From the NCBI GenBank assembly GCA_017525855.1, contig JAFXSE010000005.1, positions 25,916 to 89,915 of the forward strand: 64,000 bases of DNA. The letters are read 5' to 3'. Every line of letters begins with the position of its first letter. Within the stretch, counting starts at the first letter, position 1. Positions 10,594-64,000 of the stretch are shown piece after piece. A program made the position numbers and the translations under genes. This DNA comes from Bacilli bacterium. GTDB taxonomy: Bacteria; Bacillota; Bacilli; RF39; UBA660. Below the pieces are notes generated by a model. The model ran no database searches. It had not been told where the DNA came from and worked only from the letters and a program-made list of their open reading frames with translations.

Positions 10594-11892
10594 CTATTTA
10601 TGAATTTTTTTTGAGATGTTTTTAATTTTGTGATACATGGCAAAAGTTAATTTATATGTTTTATATAATGTTTTATTGATTACTAGGTCAAATTCTCCAA
10701 TTAATTCTACTACATGTCCTCCAAAACTTTTTTTGAAGAGATACAATCCATATAGTGGATTTTTTTCATTGAAATCACCTGTAATCCCATAGAAATTATA
10801 TCTTTTAAAATTATTTTCTGCGGCATATTTTATTCCATCAAAATGAACTGTATATGCAGATTGAAATTGCATTAATTTTTCTTCACTTCCACCATAAAGG
10901 GACAATACTTCATTGCCATATACTAAGAATAGTATTCCCCCTAAGGTTGTTTTATTTCCATACTCTTTTTTATACTCTTTAATTTTTTCTAATTGTTTAT
11001 CTAATTGTTTAATTCTTTCTTCATCTTGTTTATTATGTGAATTATATTTTTTTTCATTCATTTTTAATTCTTGATTTTCATATTTTCTGATTCTATCTTC
11101 AAGTGAGTCTTTTATTTCTTGTTGCTCTTTTTTTGTGTTTTCTTCGTAAAGATTAAAGTCGATTTCAGCAATTCTAATTTTTAGAATACCTGCATCATGA
11201 AGAGTATCCCACATTTTTTCATAGTATGAGAATGGTCTATCAACAAATTCTCGTCTGTCTGATGTATGTTTCATTATTTCTTTGAATATTGGTAGTTCAT
11301 CTTTTTCTATTTCATGAGTTATAATTCCACATTTTTCATTTTTCCTTAGAATTTGTCTTGTCTTGGATTCCATATCTTTCATGATGTCGTCCATTGCTCT
11401 ATCTGTGTTGATTACATGCATCCATCTTGGTTGAAGTGTGTCTTGCATTAGGTTGAACCCAAAATGTTTGTAACCTAATTCTTTTAAGTTATCAACAACT
11501 ATACTATTATCAAATCCATTTTCTACTAATTGTCCATTATTATCATGTTCTTTATATGGTACATAAGGATCAATTTTTATAAAGATAGCTCTTTTTTCTT
11601 TTGCAAATTGTTTTATTTTTTCAGTAAATTCTTTTAGAAGTTTTTTGTCTTTGTAGTCAATTAAAAATCCTCTAGGAGAGTAGAACATGTATCTGTTGAT
11701 GACTGGTATTTTTTTTGAAAGTATTAAAGCAGCTCCTTTTATTTTTTTATCGTCAGTCAATCCTACTAAATAACTTGTCCATCCATTACTTTTTTTTAGA
11801 TTTCCCCATGCTTGGGTTTGGTGAAATGTTATTTGTTCATGCTTTTTAGCAAAGTTTTCGAATTCTTTTTCATTTAGTTCTATTAACTTCAT
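10594..11892 (-). CDS. FemAB-family aminoacyltransferase (second of pair)
   Basis: A 432-residue protein of the FemABX fold: two GNAT-like subdomains with a long charged coiled-coil arm at about residues 245-300. Recognisable blocks are FHQTQAWGNLKKS near the N-terminus, MYHKIKNISKK at the C-terminus and FYGITGDFNEKNPLYGLYLFKK. FemABX enzymes use aminoacyl-tRNAs to add residues to lipid II and so build peptidoglycan cross-bridges. Its start lies 23 bases inside the preceding homologue, indicating translational coupling. Which amino acid is added cannot be read from the sequence. Confidence 0.9.
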   Translation of the reverse strand: MKLIELNEKEFENFAKKHEQITFHQTQAWGNLKKSNGWTSYLVGLTDDKKIKGAALILSKKIPVINRYMFYSPRGFLIDYKDKKLLKEFTEKIKQFAKEKRAIFIKIDPYVPYKEHDNNGQLVENGFDNSIVVDNLKELGYKHFGFNLMQDTLQPRWMHVINTDRAMDDIMKDMESKTRQILRKNEKCGIITHEIEKDELPIFKEIMKHTSDRREFVDRPFSYYEKMWDTLHDAGILKIRIAEIDFNLYEENTKKEQQEIKDSLEDRIRKYENQELKMNEKKYNSHNKQDEERIKQLDKQLEKIKEYKKEYGNKTTLGGILFLVYGNEVLSLYGGSEEKLMQFQSAYTVHFDGIKYAAENNFKRYNFYGITGDFNEKNPLYGLYLFKKSFGGHVVELIGEFDLVINKTLYKTYKLTFAMYHKIKNISKKIHK

Positions 11893-29189: not shown

Positions 29190-29213
29190 TAAAAAAAGGA
29201 AAGTAAATTTCCT
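29190..29213 (-). terminator. Terminator of spoIVA
   Basis: On the minus strand AGGAAA and TTTCCT pair around the loop AATTTAC-like bases (29197-29213) and are followed by seven T residues. It overlaps the spoIVA stop. Confidence 0.8.
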
Positions 29214-30687
29214 ATATTACAATAGCTATCATGTTGTTTGATCCTTTATTGACTACTTTAGATAGTGTTTGTTGAAGTTTAAATCTTATGTTATCTGGCA
29301 TAAGATTTATTTTTGATTGTATACCTTCTTGCACAATATTATCTAAACTTCTACCAAATATTTCACTTTGCCAAATAGTTGTTGGATCTTTTTTATAGTC
29401 TCTCATTAGATAATCAATAAATTCTTTTGTTTGATTTTCATTACCTATAATTGGTTCAAAAGTACTTTCAACGTCTACTTTAATCATATGAATTGATGGT
29501 GCTATTGCTTTCATTTTTACTCCAAATCTAGGGCCTTGTTTTATTATTTCAGGTTTTTCTAATTTCATATCTTCAAGAGTTGGTACAGCAACGCCGTAAC
29601 CTGTTTGTTTAACCATTTTTAATGCATATTTAATATGATCATATTCTCTTTTTGCGGTAGAGAAGTCTTGAAATAATTTAAGTAGATCAGCTTTATTTTG
29701 GACATCTATGTTAATGATTTCAGATAATGTTTTATTGTATAGTTTACTTGGTGCTGTCAAATTAATTGTTATTGTACCTGTTTTTGGATCTACATTTGAG
29801 ATGTAAGCCTTTTCTATTTCTTCACAATCAGTAAAGCTATTAGTTATTTTTTCTATATCTCTTAATTTATCTACTTCTGTGATGCTTTCTTTGATTGCTT
29901 CTATATATTTCTTTTTTAAAGGGTTATTATAATCTAGAATAGTAATCCATTCAGGCATATTAACTTTTATTTCTAATACTGGGAATTCATATAATGCTTC
30001 TCTTAATATTTTATACATATCAATTTCGGTCATATTATCTACATTCATTGGAATAACAGGGATGTTATGTTCCTCTTTTATTGATTCAGCTAGTCTTTGT
30101 GTTTCTGGTAAAGTAGGGTGAGTTGTATTTAATACTACAATAAATGGTTTATTAATGCTTTTTAATTCGTTTATTACTCTGTTTTCAGCATCTAAATAAT
30201 CTGATCTATTAAACTCTCCAATTGATCCATCTGTTGTTACTACAATGCCGATAGTTGAATGGTCTTTTATTACTTTTTCAGTTCCTATTTCAGCAGCTTC
30301 GATGAATGGTATTTCTTCATCATACCATGGTGTTTTAACCATTCTTGGACCATTTTCATCTTCTAATCCTTTAGCATTATTAATAACATATCCTACGCAA
30401 TCAATTAGTCTTATTTTACAGCTAAAGTCATCTATTTTAATTTTAGCTGCATTATTTGGAACAAATTTAGGCTCTGTTGTCATTACCATTTTTCCTTGAG
30501 CAGATTGAGGAATTTCATCTAGGGCACGTTTTTTTTCATATTCATCTTCCATATTTGGAACAATTAGGGTTTCAACAACACGTTTAATAAAAGTACTTTT
30601 TCCTGTTCTAACTGCCCCAACTATTCCTAAATATATATCGCCACCTGATCTTTCGGCAATATTTTTTATAATTTCTAATTTTTCCAT
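29212..30687 (-). CDS. spoIVA: Stage IV sporulation protein A (coat-basement ATPase)
   Basis: A 491-residue protein that polymerises with ATP hydrolysis on the forespore surface to make the base layer of the coat. The N-terminal GTPase-like domain has the Walker A GAVRTGKSTFIKRVVE, then PNMEDEYEKKRALDEIPQSA with the family's TEPKFVPN, and the Walker B DCVGYV. A middle domain and the C-terminal SpoVM-interacting region follow; the end reads NNMIAIVI. Length matches (about 492). It starts after AAAGGAGAG. No other spoIVA copy is in the window. Its presence means the coat programme is retained. Confidence 0.99.
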   Translation of the reverse strand: MEKLEIIKNIAERSGGDIYLGIVGAVRTGKSTFIKRVVETLIVPNMEDEYEKKRALDEIPQSAQGKMVMTTEPKFVPNNAAKIKIDDFSCKIRLIDCVGYVINNAKGLEDENGPRMVKTPWYDEEIPFIEAAEIGTEKVIKDHSTIGIVVTTDGSIGEFNRSDYLDAENRVINELKSINKPFIVVLNTTHPTLPETQRLAESIKEEHNIPVIPMNVDNMTEIDMYKILREALYEFPVLEIKVNMPEWITILDYNNPLKKKYIEAIKESITEVDKLRDIEKITNSFTDCEEIEKAYISNVDPKTGTITINLTAPSKLYNKTLSEIINIDVQNKADLLKLFQDFSTAKREYDHIKYALKMVKQTGYGVAVPTLEDMKLEKPEIIKQGPRFGVKMKAIAPSIHMIKVDVESTFEPIIGNENQTKEFIDYLMRDYKKDPTTIWQSEIFGRSLDNIVQEGIQSKINLMPDNIRFKLQQTLSKVVNKGSNNMIAIVI

Positions 30688-57984: not shown

Positions 57985-58054
57985 TATTATAGGCTTTTAT
58001 ATTATTACACTTTATATTTCCTATCATATAATAATTTAGATAGGAGGATATGTG

Positions 58055-58387
58055 ATGTTTCAAGATCAAAATTTAAATAGTACTATGGACTTTGATTCTA
58101 GTATTAATGGTAATAATAATTTTTCTTATAATGATGTTGATTTCAATTTGAATCAAAGTAATATGGGAATGAATCAACCTATGGATATTGGTATGCCTGC
58201 TTGTGAAGCACCTCGTGAAAGATGTATTCACAGAACTTTTGTGCATGAAGTACCCCATGTATGTCCAATAAAAACAAGAATAATTAATCATCATGTATAT
58301 AAACATACATATAGACCTGAATATTCTTGCTGTGAAGAAAATGTAGTAAGTAATGTTCAATGTGGTTCTTGTTCACAATTTCAATAG
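58055..58387 (+). CDS. cotD: CotD-like spore coat protein
   Basis: A 110-residue protein with an Asn-rich N-terminus (FSYNDVDFNLNQSNMGMNQP) and a Cys/His-rich C-terminal block: CIHRTFVHEVPHVCPIKTRI, NHHVYKHTYRPEYSCCEEN. This His-pattern (H-x2-PH-x-[HC]P ... NHHxYKHxH) matches the CotD coat proteins of Bacillus, which lie in the inner coat. The start at 58055 follows AGGAGG 7 bases before; a GTG at 58052 is less likely. It ends in a good terminator. Confidence 0.75.
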   Translation: MFQDQNLNSTMDFDSSINGNNNFSYNDVDFNLNQSNMGMNQPMDIGMPACEAPRERCIHRTFVHEVPHVCPIKTRIINHHVYKHTYRPEYSCCEENVVSNVQCGSCSQFQ

Positions 58388-59148: not shown

Positions 59149-59934
59149 TTATCTTGTTATTTTGCTTTCAATTTTTGTAATTAATTCATACATTAAAAAG
59201 GCTATAACCCCTAAAATAAATACACTAGTGATTACTAAATTAATATTAAATACTTGTGATCCATACATTATTAAATAACCTAATCCTTCTTTGGATACTA
59301 ATAGTTCTCCCATTATGATTCCTATTAAAGTCATACTAATATTAATTTTTGTACAACTTATTAAGTTTTTCTTATTACTTGGTATTATTACTTTTATAAA
59401 TATATCTTTTTTTGATGCGTTTAGTGATTTTAAGAGTGTTATATAGTTTTTATTTACTGATGTAAATCCATTGTATATATTAATAATAGTAATGAATAAG
59501 GAAATAAGAAGTGCCATACATATTATAGAGTTTGTGCTCGCTCCAATCCAGATAATAATTAATGGGCCTAAAGCTACTTTAGGTAAAGCATTTAAAATTG
59601 TGAGATATGGGTCTATTATTTTAGATAGTTTTTTAAAAAACCACATTGTTGTTGCGATTAAGAAACCAAATGTTGAAGTTATTATAAAACTTATTAATGT
59701 TTCGTATAATGTTATTGATATGTGTTTGAAAAGAGTTTTATCTTGTATTAGACTTATTATTGTTTTTATTACTTCTTTTGGTGATGATGAAAGGAAAGAA
59801 TTAATTAAGTGAAAATCACTTAATAGTTCCCAAATTAATAAGAATGAAATTATAATTAAAATTTGAAAAAAAGTAATCAATTTTTTCTCTTTTTTTATTT
59901 TGTTAAGATATATTTCATGTTCAGTTAATTTCAT
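59149..59934 (-). CDS. ABC transporter permease (SsuC/TauC/ThiX-type)
   Basis: A 261-residue inner-membrane permease with six helices. The cytoplasmic EAA-like loop contains ITLLKSLNASKKDIFIKVII, and TILNALPKVALGPLIIIWIG is the typical block of the nitrate/sulfonate/taurine and thiamine-pyrimidine importer family. Its start overlaps the end of the ATPase fragment by 14 bases, so both belonged to one operon. No substrate-binding protein is in the window. Because the ATPase is truncated, import through this permease is probably lost here. Confidence 0.9.
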   Translation of the reverse strand: MKLTEHEIYLNKIKKEKKLITFFQILIIISFLLIWELLSDFHLINSFLSSSPKEVIKTIISLIQDKTLFKHISITLYETLISFIITSTFGFLIATTMWFFKKLSKIIDPYLTILNALPKVALGPLIIIWIGASTNSIICMALLISLFITIINIYNGFTSVNKNYITLLKSLNASKKDIFIKVIIPSNKKNLISCTKINISMTLIGIIMGELLVSKEGLGYLIMYGSQVFNINLVITSVFILGVIAFLMYELITKIESKITR

Positions 59935-60346
59935 GATTTAAGTCCTTCCATATTTTGTCATAGTATTCATTGTAGTTTTTTTCTTTTCTTGTTGTTAGTG
60001 TGCTTCTCTTATTTTCAAATTGTATTTCATAAATATTTAGGACTGTTGATGGTCTTTTGGATAAGACGATTACTCTTTCTGATAGTGTTATTGCCTCGTT
60101 TATATCATGTGTTATCATTATGGCTGTCTTGTGTTCATTTTTAATTATTTTATATACATCTTCACTTACTTTTAATCTTGATTGTGAATCAAGTGCAGAG
60201 AACGCTTCATCTAATAGTAAGATATCTGGTCTAATTGCAAGTGTCCTTATTAAAGCAACTGTTTGAATGTAGTTAAGACACTTATCATTTCCCTTAAAAC
60301 TTTCAAAGTAATGGAAGGAGGGGGATATATTTATTAAAAATTCCAC
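59921..60346 (-). pseudogene. ABC transporter ATPase, 5' half removed by the recombinase element
   Basis: Only the C-terminal half of an SsuB/TauB-type ATPase is left. Homology begins at QTVALIRTLAIRP (from about 60265), the end of the ABC signature, and continues with the Walker B ILLLDEAFSALD, switch His in ITHDINEAI and SERVIVLSKRP. The Walker A, Q-loop and first residues of the signature are missing, and no such half is found elsewhere in the window. The first 29 residues of the frame (from ATG 60346) are encoded by element DNA and overlap the recombinase end. The fragment is not expected to hydrolyse ATP. Confidence 0.88.
60255..60290. other. Left junction (att-like) of the recombinase element
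   Basis: The break between unrelated sequence and ABC ATPase homology falls between about 60262 and 60275 (minus strand ACATTCAAACAGTTGC). It lies 44-70 bases from the recombinase stop, the usual place of an attachment site for large serine recombinases. The core dinucleotide cannot be fixed without the other end. Confidence 0.5.
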
Positions 60347-61923
60347 TTAATTTGAATGTCTCTTGTGTTTGCTTTTTTGTTTAACTTTCCAATATAGATT
60401 TTATCTATAAACTCATCAATGATAACTCTGTTTAAATTTTCTAATTTTTGATATTTACTAAATATTTGTTTATTATTATTTAAAGATTTTTGTTTCATTT
60501 TATAATAGGTAATTTCTTCATTGATACTTTTGATTTCATTGCTATAATCATCTTCATTTTTATTATAATCAGTAATTAAATCTTTAAATTGTTCTTTTGT
60601 AATAATACCATTAACCTTATCTTCATACAAACTCTTTAAATAATTCCTAGTTTTAATAACTTTCTTTTCATAATCTACTCGTTGTTTTTCTAATGATTTA
60701 ATCTTGTTATTAAATCTTTTGTCTTTCTTTTTAGAATCTATATTATTTAATTTTTCTTCATCGTAGAATATTTTTATTTTTTTGTTAATTGTTTGTAAAA
60801 CTAAATCAGCCAGTAAATCATATCTAATTGAAGATTTGTTTATACAATCATCATATCCATCACGATTATTAGAACATACTAGATATTCGTGCTTAGATGA
60901 GTTCTTTTTTCGCATATAGTGTTTACATTCTAAACAAAATACCTTACCAGAGAAGATATGAATTTTTCCTGTTGTACTTATAGCTTTTGTTCTTTCTTTC
61001 ATAGCGATTTGTATTTTACTAAATGTCTCTTTATCAATGATAGCTTCGTGAGTGTTTAGGACTCTTATCCATTCACTTTTGTTTTTGTTTTTGATTTTAT
61101 GGTTTTTATAACTAACTGTAGTTCTTTTGCCTTGTATTAAATGTCCTAGATAAACTTCATTAGTTAAAATTGTCTTAATTGCATTTATATTCCATTTTAT
61201 TTCTTCACGTGGTCTATTACTAATTATATTTAATTTAATGCCTTTTTGGTATTTATATAGTGATGGACAAGGTGTTTTTTTACTATTTAAATATTTAGCA
61301 ATACCTGTAAATCCTAGTCCTGTTAGATATAAATTATAGATGTTTTTTACAATTTCAGAAGCAACGGGATCAACTGTTAGTTTGTTATTATTATTTGAGT
61401 CAATTTCATAACCAAATGGGGCGAAGGGAGAAATAAATTCACCTTGCTTCATTTTAGTATGAAAAGCACTTCTTATATTATTTGAAACATCTTCTAAGTA
61501 CCATTCATTAACTAGGCCGTTTATTTGTCGTGATTTTTTATTACCTAGAATTGTAGTATCCGCATTATCAGATAATCCGATAAACCTGATATTCCATTCT
61601 TTAAATTTGTTATTGATATATTTCTCAACTATTTCCATATCTCTTGAAAACCTTGATTGGCTTTTGCATAATACAATATCAAGTTTTTTGCTTTCACAAT
61701 CTCTAATTAGTCTTTCAAATTCAGGTCTATAAGTTCCGGCACCAGATAAATCTTCATCACAATATTCATCTGTTAGTGCAAATTCAGGATGTCTATTAAT
61801 ATATTGGGTGAGCATATTCCGTTGATTTTTAATAGATTCGCTGTCATCTTTTCTATTCCTTTTATCTCTGTCTTCATTAGATAGTCTTAAATAAATACCA
61901 ACTCTTAATATTTTTTTATTCAT
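60334..61923 (-). CDS. Large serine recombinase
   Basis: A 529-residue site-specific recombinase of the TnpX/TndX/phage-integrase type. The N-terminal resolvase domain has IYLRLSNEDRD (catalytic Ser), GTYRPEFERLIRDCESKK and LCKSQSRFSRD; then a Recombinase domain (FAPFGYEIDSN ... IAKYLNSKKTPCPS), a zinc ribbon (FCLECKHYMRKK ... CSNNRDGYDDC) and a coiled coil. It excises and integrates DNA circles at att sites. It lies at the edge of a truncated ABC gene. A 41-residue ORF lies 56 bases upstream. The start has only a weak site. Confidence 0.95.
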   Translation of the reverse strand: MNKKILRVGIYLRLSNEDRDKRNRKDDSESIKNQRNMLTQYINRHPEFALTDEYCDEDLSGAGTYRPEFERLIRDCESKKLDIVLCKSQSRFSRDMEIVEKYINNKFKEWNIRFIGLSDNADTTILGNKKSRQINGLVNEWYLEDVSNNIRSAFHTKMKQGEFISPFAPFGYEIDSNNNNKLTVDPVASEIVKNIYNLYLTGLGFTGIAKYLNSKKTPCPSLYKYQKGIKLNIISNRPREEIKWNINAIKTILTNEVYLGHLIQGKRTTVSYKNHKIKNKNKSEWIRVLNTHEAIIDKETFSKIQIAMKERTKAISTTGKIHIFSGKVFCLECKHYMRKKNSSKHEYLVCSNNRDGYDDCINKSSIRYDLLADLVLQTINKKIKIFYDEEKLNNIDSKKKDKRFNNKIKSLEKQRVDYEKKVIKTRNYLKSLYEDKVNGIITKEQFKDLITDYNKNEDDYSNEIKSINEEITYYKMKQKSLNNNKQIFSKYQKLENLNRVIIDEFIDKIYIGKLNKKANTRDIQIKWNF

Positions 61924-61979
61924 CTTTAATGTAATAATTATGTTTAAAGCTGCTCTTATAGTAAATAATGTTATAACGT

Positions 61980-62105
61980 TTATTCATAATAATTAACATT
62001 AAACTCCAAAAATTCAATAATTTTGTATAATTTTTTATTAACTATTTCTTTTAGTTTAGTTTCTGTCAAATCTTTATTTATAATATCAATAATATTATAT
62101 TTCAT
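61980..62105 (-). CDS. Small ORF upstream of the recombinase, 41 residues
   Basis: ATG at 62105 follows GAAAGGAGCGAAAACA, a strong ribosome site, and opens a 41-residue frame (KYNIIDIINKDLTETKLKEI ... IIEFLEFNVNYYE) ending TAA. It is helical and Ile/Lys-rich. It lies 56 bases before the recombinase on the same strand, and is probably co-transcribed. A TATAAT-like box sits about 65 bases upstream. No family is recognised; small factors that direct excision are often encoded beside such recombinases. The rest of the 61924-62337 gap is AT-rich. Confidence 0.6.
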   Translation of the reverse strand: MKYNIIDIINKDLTETKLKEIVNKKLYKIIEFLEFNVNYYE

Positions 62106-62337: not shown

Positions 62338-63198
62338 TTACTTCTTTTCTTTTATAGAATATGTATCTCTTCTGATATAAATATCAAATTTAGTCTTTTC
62401 TCCATCAGGTGATTCTAACACAAATTCAGTTTTACCTGCTTTCTTAAATTCTGCATGAACCATCCAAGCTTCAAGACTATCTTCATATTTTATGCTCAAA
62501 TCTCCATATTTATTATCCACTAAATAAACCTTATATGAATCATCAAATTGATATTTTTCACCATCATATAATATATCTGTACTATATATAGGTGGATTTA
62601 TAAAACATATAACAGACATAATAATAATTATAATTACACTTATTGTTTCTCCAACTATTTTTATTTTTTTATTTTTAAAAATAGCTAATGGATAAATAAT
62701 TAGTGCACTTATACAAAAAATAGTAGTTACGATATGTCTTGGAAAAGAAAACATAGTTTTTGAGAAATACCCGGCACATTCTTTTCCAGTTAATAATAAC
62801 ATTGGAATAAGAATTAATAATCCCCACCATTTATCTTTTTTCATATAATATCCAATAAAGCCCATAGGAATTGTTGCTATTGTCCAAGGAATCCAAAATC
62901 TATAATAAGTCATAAATAAGTTACTATTTTTAATCATGTCTTGAATCAGATAAACTAATGGTTGACTTATAAGAAAGAATATAAAACACTTTAATGCTGA
63001 ATCTATTGCTGATTTACTATTTATAATAATAAATATCCCTAAAAATATCCATACTTCAAATGTAACTGTCAAATCACTAAATGATGTATCTTTAACTATA
63101 GGTATCATTGCCATTATAGCTGTATAAATTCCTATAATGATAGCCATAACAATTACCTTTGGCCAACTTAAATTAATTCCTCCAAATATTTTTTTCAC
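62338..63198 (-). CDS. Polytopic membrane protein with extracytoplasmic tail, unknown
   Basis: A 286-residue protein with about seven helices in the first 200 residues (from INLSWPKVIVMAIIIGIYTA) followed by a soluble, probably outer domain of 85 residues (DDSYKVYLVDNKYGDLSIKY ... KTEFVLESPDGEKTKFDIYI) that looks like an Ig-type sandwich. I do not recognise a name for it. It is probably cargo of the recombinase element. The start follows GATGTGATATTG-like bases without a strong site. Confidence 0.65.
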   Translation of the reverse strand: MKKIFGGINLSWPKVIVMAIIIGIYTAIMAMIPIVKDTSFSDLTVTFEVWIFLGIFIIINSKSAIDSALKCFIFFLISQPLVYLIQDMIKNSNLFMTYYRFWIPWTIATIPMGFIGYYMKKDKWWGLLILIPMLLLTGKECAGYFSKTMFSFPRHIVTTIFCISALIIYPLAIFKNKKIKIVGETISVIIIIIMSVICFINPPIYSTDILYDGEKYQFDDSYKVYLVDNKYGDLSIKYEDSLEAWMVHAEFKKAGKTEFVLESPDGEKTKFDIYIRRDTYSIKEKK

Positions 63199-63601: not shown

Positions 63602-64000
63602 ATGAAAAAAAGATATAGTGTTAAAAATAAATATGTAAAATTAGTAATTCCAGTAATTTTATTTGTAGTTGTATTTTTAACAATTTGCTATTCAGCTTTT
63701 TCTAACAATTTAGGAATATATGGAATTAGTGCAACTGTTAGAGTTCATAAGGATGTTAGAATTGGAGGAATATTTTTATCAAATGCTACTAATGATGGAA
63801 TATCACATTATGAAGATTATAATGTAAAAGATATTTATAGTAGTGTAACTTTACCAAATGCTAATTCATCAATAACTTATGATGTCAAAGTTCTTAATTT
63901 AGGTAATGTTGAAATGGGTATTTTAAATATTTCTGGTCTTCCGAATAATCTAACATATTCTATAAGTAATTATAATTTAGAAGACCCATTATGTGACGAT
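63602..64000 (+). CDS. N-terminal part of a secreted surface protein
   Basis: The first 133 residues of a longer protein that runs off the window. A basic start (KKRYSVKNKYVK) precedes a hydrophobic signal or anchor (LVIPVILFVVVFLTICYSAF) and then a beta-rich part: YGISATVRVHKDVRIGGIFL, a Y-E-D-YNV segment, and TLPNANSSITYDVKVLNLGN. This matches the pattern of large cell-surface proteins common in gut Firmicutes, in which the strand after SATVRV begins Ig-like repeats. The start follows AAGGAGAAG. Ligand or anchoring mode cannot be seen. Confidence 0.75.
   Translation, partial: MKKRYSVKNKYVKLVIPVILFVVVFLTICYSAFSNNLGIYGISATVRVHKDVRIGGIFLSNATNDGISHYEDYNVKDIYSSVTLPNANSSITYDVKVLNLGNVEMGILNISGLPNNLTYSISNYNLEDPLCDD

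Follow-up and report, generated by a model that had tools for sequence, protein, structure and literature searches.

The 64,000-nucleotide stretch of a Bacilli bacterium contig analysed here (the window) contains one end of a large serine recombinase element, which interrupts the ATPase gene of an ATP-binding cassette (ABC) importer at a codon of its signature motif. Comparison with related loci confirms the break and shows that it recurs. That a large serine recombinase made the insertion, at an attachment (att) site, is strongly supported by relatives, in which the missing N-terminal half of the ATPase (N-half), a common core and inverted-repeat arms are found. On the strength of the sequences, we regard it as moderately probable that the element's own recombinase excises it, and does so in the terminal mother cell alone, during sporulation; the gene would thereby be restored.

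In the window, the ATPase frame is picked up again at LSGGMRQ/RVALIRT (the slash marks the junction), the signature motif of ABC ATPases, and translation of the minus strand across the junction reads ...CLNYIQT/VALIRTLAIRPDILLLDEAFSALD... At most 126 of the 141 residues of this open reading frame (ORF) can be aligned to intact relatives, beginning at about residue 13–28. A first-pass annotation, made from the letters alone, had read the frame as resuming after element-derived residues and the Walker A half as missing, and both observations hold. The N-half is missing from the 64 kb and lies off the contig, a tblastn search with the N-half of relative L002 giving six matches of which the best has an E value of 0.071. 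The gene order of the importer operon is binding protein (NMT1/SsuA-like), ATPase and permease.

The Resolvase, Recombinase and zinc-ribbon domains of the 529-residue recombinase all exceed Pfam cut-offs, and the protein matches the PHROGs integrase family phrog_95 (E 4e-100). Its gene does end close to the break, for which the same annotation gave 44–70 bases: the gene end (60334) is 53 bp away from the outer attR edge (60281) and 75 bp away from the core GT (60258–60259). The window has a single match to the attR pattern, which was built from relatives with this site among them, and 100 shuffles have no match. Position 62105, the end of the interval first annotated, is the start of a 41-residue ORF preceding the recombinase. 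When 17 upstream regions of recombinase genes were examined, 14 had a comparable small ORF, and the 41-residue protein is a candidate recombination directionality factor.

Related loci were collected with a permease alignment (24 sequences) against species-representative genomes, mostly metagenome bins and one per species, and the best 80 of 563 relatives were analysed (record labels: uncultured Bacilli, Erysipelotrichaceae, Tenericutes, Clostridia and similar). The C-terminal half of the ATPase (C-half) begins at the window's codon in 26 of the 80, and an unbroken ATPase, running from Walker A through the end in one frame, is present in 47. Breaks at other places account for six loci (L009, L015, L021, L047, L052 and L061), of which L047 is additionally broken at the window's site, and L077 is frame-disrupted otherwise. 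The genome of L021 (G029) also has a full-length ATPase frame of 252 residues. A second sample comprised 193 genomes from the family of relative G017, 137 of which gave 138 ATPase N-half rows. Manual sorting, with frame length as a guide, finds 97 rows intact; 26 are broken at the window's site (G152 less certainly), 8 are broken near residue 200, 3 elsewhere, and 4 are ended by contig ends. About one fifth of the family's sampled ATPase genes (26/138) are broken at this one codon, and none of the 138 N-half rows contains an internal stop.

The missing N-half was located in 23 of the 26 genomes that share the window's break (28 of 32 when all genomes searched are counted). It lies at one place per genome and is stop-free, that of G020 running into a contig end after 113 residues. 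Of the 26 split genomes, 19 encode a relative of the window's recombinase (56–84% identity), and in 16 this gene shares its contig with one half of the ATPase. From 23 N-half loci entered, 21 left junctions were obtained, 20 of which could be paired with a right junction. The two sides share the core dinucleotide GT in 19 of the 20 pairs and AC in G016. The core repeat that the first-pass annotation asked for at the junction is present, and no deletion scar is found at the 21 left junctions. The att arms form inverted repeats (mean of 16.0/24 matches versus 6.8/24 for shuffled arms). In G006 (L028), whose recombinase shows 24% identity, the core is shared and the arms are without match (4/24). 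In the 13 relatives where a single stretch spans the element from end to end, the two gene parts share an orientation, are intact apart from the split and are separated by elements of 3.0–17.6 kb. The cargo of the elements is variable, and includes a collagen-repeat protein (L017 6180–7406), a Listeria-Bacteroides-repeat protein (L051 4347–5855) and a replication initiator (L044 5641–6525).

Other breaks were seen in the same operon. A second ATPase site, at residues 192–203, is broken in L047, L052, L061 and eight family genomes, and its inserts carry shorter or partial recombinase matches (~23–29% identity). The binding-protein gene is broken near residue 147 (G011 and G085, with a recombinase of the 520-residue class beside it) or residue 193 (G030 and L061), these breaks being recorded at loci L109, L151, L148 and L061; L047, from G030, has breaks at both ATPase sites as well as in the binding protein. 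G036 has a 254-residue ATPase frame and a second N-half that ends at 142 residues with a 77%-identity recombinase adjoining (C7:24077–24481 and C12:25567–25971), which would be two operon copies or mixed strains.

Six genomes form a clade sharing one element: G010 (Candidatus Onthousia excrementipullorum), G011, G014, G017, G020 and G021. The element, colinear in blocks of ~85–91% DNA identity in the three genomes compared at length, encodes two P-type ATPases, ArsR, Sua5, the recombinase and a Bro-N protein. Strong purifying selection acts on both gene halves in this clade. At dS > 0.3, the ratio of nonsynonymous to synonymous divergence (dN/dS) has a median of 0.12 in the N-half and of 0.11 in the C-half (11 non-independent pairs each); intact pairs, with medians of 0.36 and 0.25 (174 pairs), are more diverged than the clade pairs and therefore provide no matched control. 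Neutral evolution of a lineage to 0.2 substitutions per site should leave ~6 stops in the 249 codons, and none is seen in the clade. No in-frame ATG, GTG or TTG precedes the clade C-half; the first lies 15–25 residues in, and the stretch before it is still conserved. Low dN/dS, the absence of stops and a conserved stretch without a start codon argue that the joined gene is in use. Synonymous divergence from G017 is 0.28–0.61 for element genes (Bro-N up to 0.90), compared with 0.61–0.74 for ffh, 0.32–0.42 for the permease, 0.56–0.80 for the binding protein and 0.20–0.76 for one flanking gene. Element genes that are diverged less than host genes, or nearly as much, fit shared descent. The clade's sua5 (threonylcarbamoyl-AMP synthase) gives a single match per genome, in or with the element, in all six genomes (for example L112 8827–9345).

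Several observations suggest a sporulation context for the importer. SpoIVA is found in 25 of 27 split hosts, and the SigK model has a match in 103 genomes out of 117 (39 exceed the cut-off). The presence of the ATPase tracks that of SpoIVA (129/163 genomes with it versus 8/30 without), and not that of Ffh. Promoters were scanned with consensus motifs for sigma-E, sigma-K and sigma-A. The box CATANNNTA stands 20–45 bp upstream of the importer operon at 28 of 33 usable loci, compared with 1/24 for ffh and 0/21 for spoIVA. It resembles a sigma-K promoter, for which element lengths and spacing are given in PMC517825, but may instead be a sigma-A promoter. In G022 (L147, contig 49), the one relative in which a spoIVA split was read in detail, spoIVA itself is interrupted at about residue 120 by a 13.4-kb stretch, with a 528-residue serine recombinase adjoining its C-half. 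Two SpoIVA matches occur in 12 of 163 family genomes, an upper bound on such splits; those of G130 and G170 end at contig ends.

These data suggest the following course of events. A serine recombinase element inserted at the signature-motif codon of the ATPase gene would be removed through attL × attR recombination by its own recombinase, with the 41-residue protein as the putative directionality factor enabling excision. Two features, the promoter box of sigma-K type and the presence of sua5 among the cargo, suggest that excision is confined to the terminal mother cell during sporulation, where the joined ATPase gene would restore an importer serving late sporulation. The elements are likely to be gene-intervening elements of the skin, SPbeta and gin kind. 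The skin-in-sigK parallel drawn in the first-pass annotation gains from the spoIVA and sigK-like genes of the hosts, the split spoIVA of G022 and the sigma-K-like importer promoter. Its interpretation stands as regards serine recombinase insertion, for which relatives supply the N-half, core and arms, and becomes less likely as regards a growth-phase switch for nutrient import. A broader version of the proposal is possible but more tentative: the importer, not known as a sporulation gene, would be part of the sigma-K mother-cell programme in an uncultured family of spore-forming Bacilli; several unrelated serine recombinase elements would be parked in its ATPase and binding-protein genes and in spoIVA, since a gene that no cell but the terminal mother cell needs offers a safe harbour; mother-cell excision would restore the importer; and in one clade, capture of the host's only sua5 would lock the element into the germ line.

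A number of results limit the case for mother-cell excision. A recombinase of at least 50% identity was not found in 7 of the 26 split genomes; the expectation that an ATPase fragment would have a recombinase next to it is partly upheld, one of the seven, L028, carrying a different serine recombinase at the junction. No sporulation promoter was found before the recombinase module in 14 regions, and no intact ATPase from the window's species appears among the 120 matches listed. Divergence between G010 and G011 is uneven (0.03–0.09 for ffh, permease and recombinase; 0.34–0.45 for N-half, binding protein and P-type ATPases), which indicates that the locus recombines, and two comparison genomes are without a sua5 match. 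These last two points keep the probability of mother-cell excision moderate. Recombinase and host trees correlate when the clade is included (Mantel r = 0.71, 16 taxa), but not when five clade members are removed (r = 0.19, p = 0.24, 12 taxa). The discordance shows that the element family is mobile, and some insertions may be inert; beyond the clade, the elements seem to have been gained by horizontal transfer, and could be without effect on a working gene's restoration, as inert insertions.

The leading alternative is that ordinary site-specific mobile elements, with a conserved codon of the ATPase gene as their attB, have knocked out a dispensable importer too recently for decay to show. Discordant trees outside the one clade, widely different cargo, a Walker A-to-end frame unbroken in just 47 of the 80 loci and recombination within the six-genome clade are all in keeping with it. 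We nevertheless consider it unlikely, given N-halves without a single stop, dN/dS of ~0.1 for both halves in a clade where element and host genes have diverged to about the same extent, and the similar splitting in G022 of spoIVA, no dispensable gene in a spore former. Less probable still is the reversible switch of nutrient import in growing cells, by phase variation or stress-induced excision: the six-genome clade has no detected sua5 other than the one inside the element, which makes excision in growing cells improbable relative to excision confined to the mother cell. Separately made halves assembling into a working split ATPase, so that excision would be unnecessary, are very improbable: a GTG at 60346 in the window does open a frame that includes VALIRT, and N-halves do stop a few codons beyond the junction (frames mostly of 141–148 residues), but no ATG, GTG or TTG precedes VALIRT in 19 of the 26 C-halves, including those of all six clade members with their first start-type codon well inside the conserved C-half, and the explanation fails at those 19 loci.

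Comparable elements are known. The gin element splits gerE, a sporulation regulator, in Bacillus cereus ATCC10987, and its excision with GirC and GirX has been shown in vivo and in vitro, according to the account in PMC5595907. As described there, gin shares with the present elements a serine recombinase, a short common core within inverted repeats and a split host gene in a spore-former-type genome. Like gin, the element in the window is not recognised as a prophage, the recombinase being the sole match when four window proteins are compared with PHROGs. Unlike gin, it has as its target an ABC importer ATPase, several recombinase types occur at the site, and excision is predicted from sequence. 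The skin element in sigK (B. subtilis and C. difficile) and SPbeta in spsM likewise are large serine recombinase elements that split a mother-cell gene, in the description of PMC5595907. The same source describes the recombinase as constitutive, and the directionality factor as sporulation-controlled, in SPbeta and C. difficile skin; the recombinase module here likewise shows no sporulation promoter in the 14 regions. The present elements differ from skin and SPbeta in their host gene, in their smaller size and in their recurrence across many uncultured Bacilli species. Gene-intervening elements described to date occupy known sporulation genes, as summarized in that source, and, judged by titles, term counts and abstract openings, the open-access literature yielded no report of an ABC importer gene, or of spoIVA, being split by such an element.

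Among characterized recombinases, the best NCBIfam match is XisF of the fdxN element (NF041201; 109.6 bits, far under the curated cut-off of 375). TndX of Tn5397-like elements (H30, a plasmid record) is a distant large serine recombinase, with 31.0% identity over 94% of the query. Relatives in phage and plasmid records all fall below 60% identity, and the viral contigs scanned contain no relatives of the permease or the recombinase.

One importer operon is thus broken at one codon in about a fifth of its sampled ATPase genes in a family, by more than one recombinase type, and the loci form a large natural collection of serine recombinase and att pairs on one target. If excision is developmental, such breaks would be natural labels of terminal-cell genes, and split genes in uncultured spore formers could expose new sporulation functions, this importer first. 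Features of the window and of the split spoIVA locus are listed in Table 1.

Table 1. Features of the window, and of the split spoIVA locus in relative G022 (window positions unless a locus is named).
Feature	Position	Strand	Remarks
SpoIVA, mother-cell sporulation gene of the host, not in the element	29212..30687	-	Pfam PF09547 (E 1.2e-107), PF20438, PF20439
ABC importer permease (NitT/TauT type), intact	59149..59934	-	Pfam PF00528 (E 2.3e-24)
ORF with ATPase C-half	59921..60346	-	V codon 60259 to stop, ATPase; preceding part, element DNA
attR	60255..60281	-	element arm GTGTCTTAACTACATTCAA, core GT 60258-60259, then gene
Large serine recombinase, 529 residues	60334..61923	-	Resolvase, Recombinase, Zn ribbon, DUF4368
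41-residue ORF preceding recombinase	61980..62105	-	candidate recombination directionality factor; no PHROGs match
Element cargo, 286-residue membrane-like protein	62338..63198	-	no Pfam or PHROGs match
Element cargo, protein start with signal-like N terminus, continuing beyond the window	63602..64000	+	no Pfam or PHROGs match
Split spoIVA and recombinase, G022	L147 1453-2574, 2654-4186, 16012-16374

No riboswitch was detected in six importer loci with Rfam at gathering thresholds. L001, where the ATPase is intact, has a group II intron (RF02005, 98 bits) at 11411–11649 (+), ~0.6 kb downstream of the permease. Positions 58052–58387 (+) of the window encode a small Cys- and His-rich protein with no Pfam match, similar by eye to a CotD-like spore coat protein.
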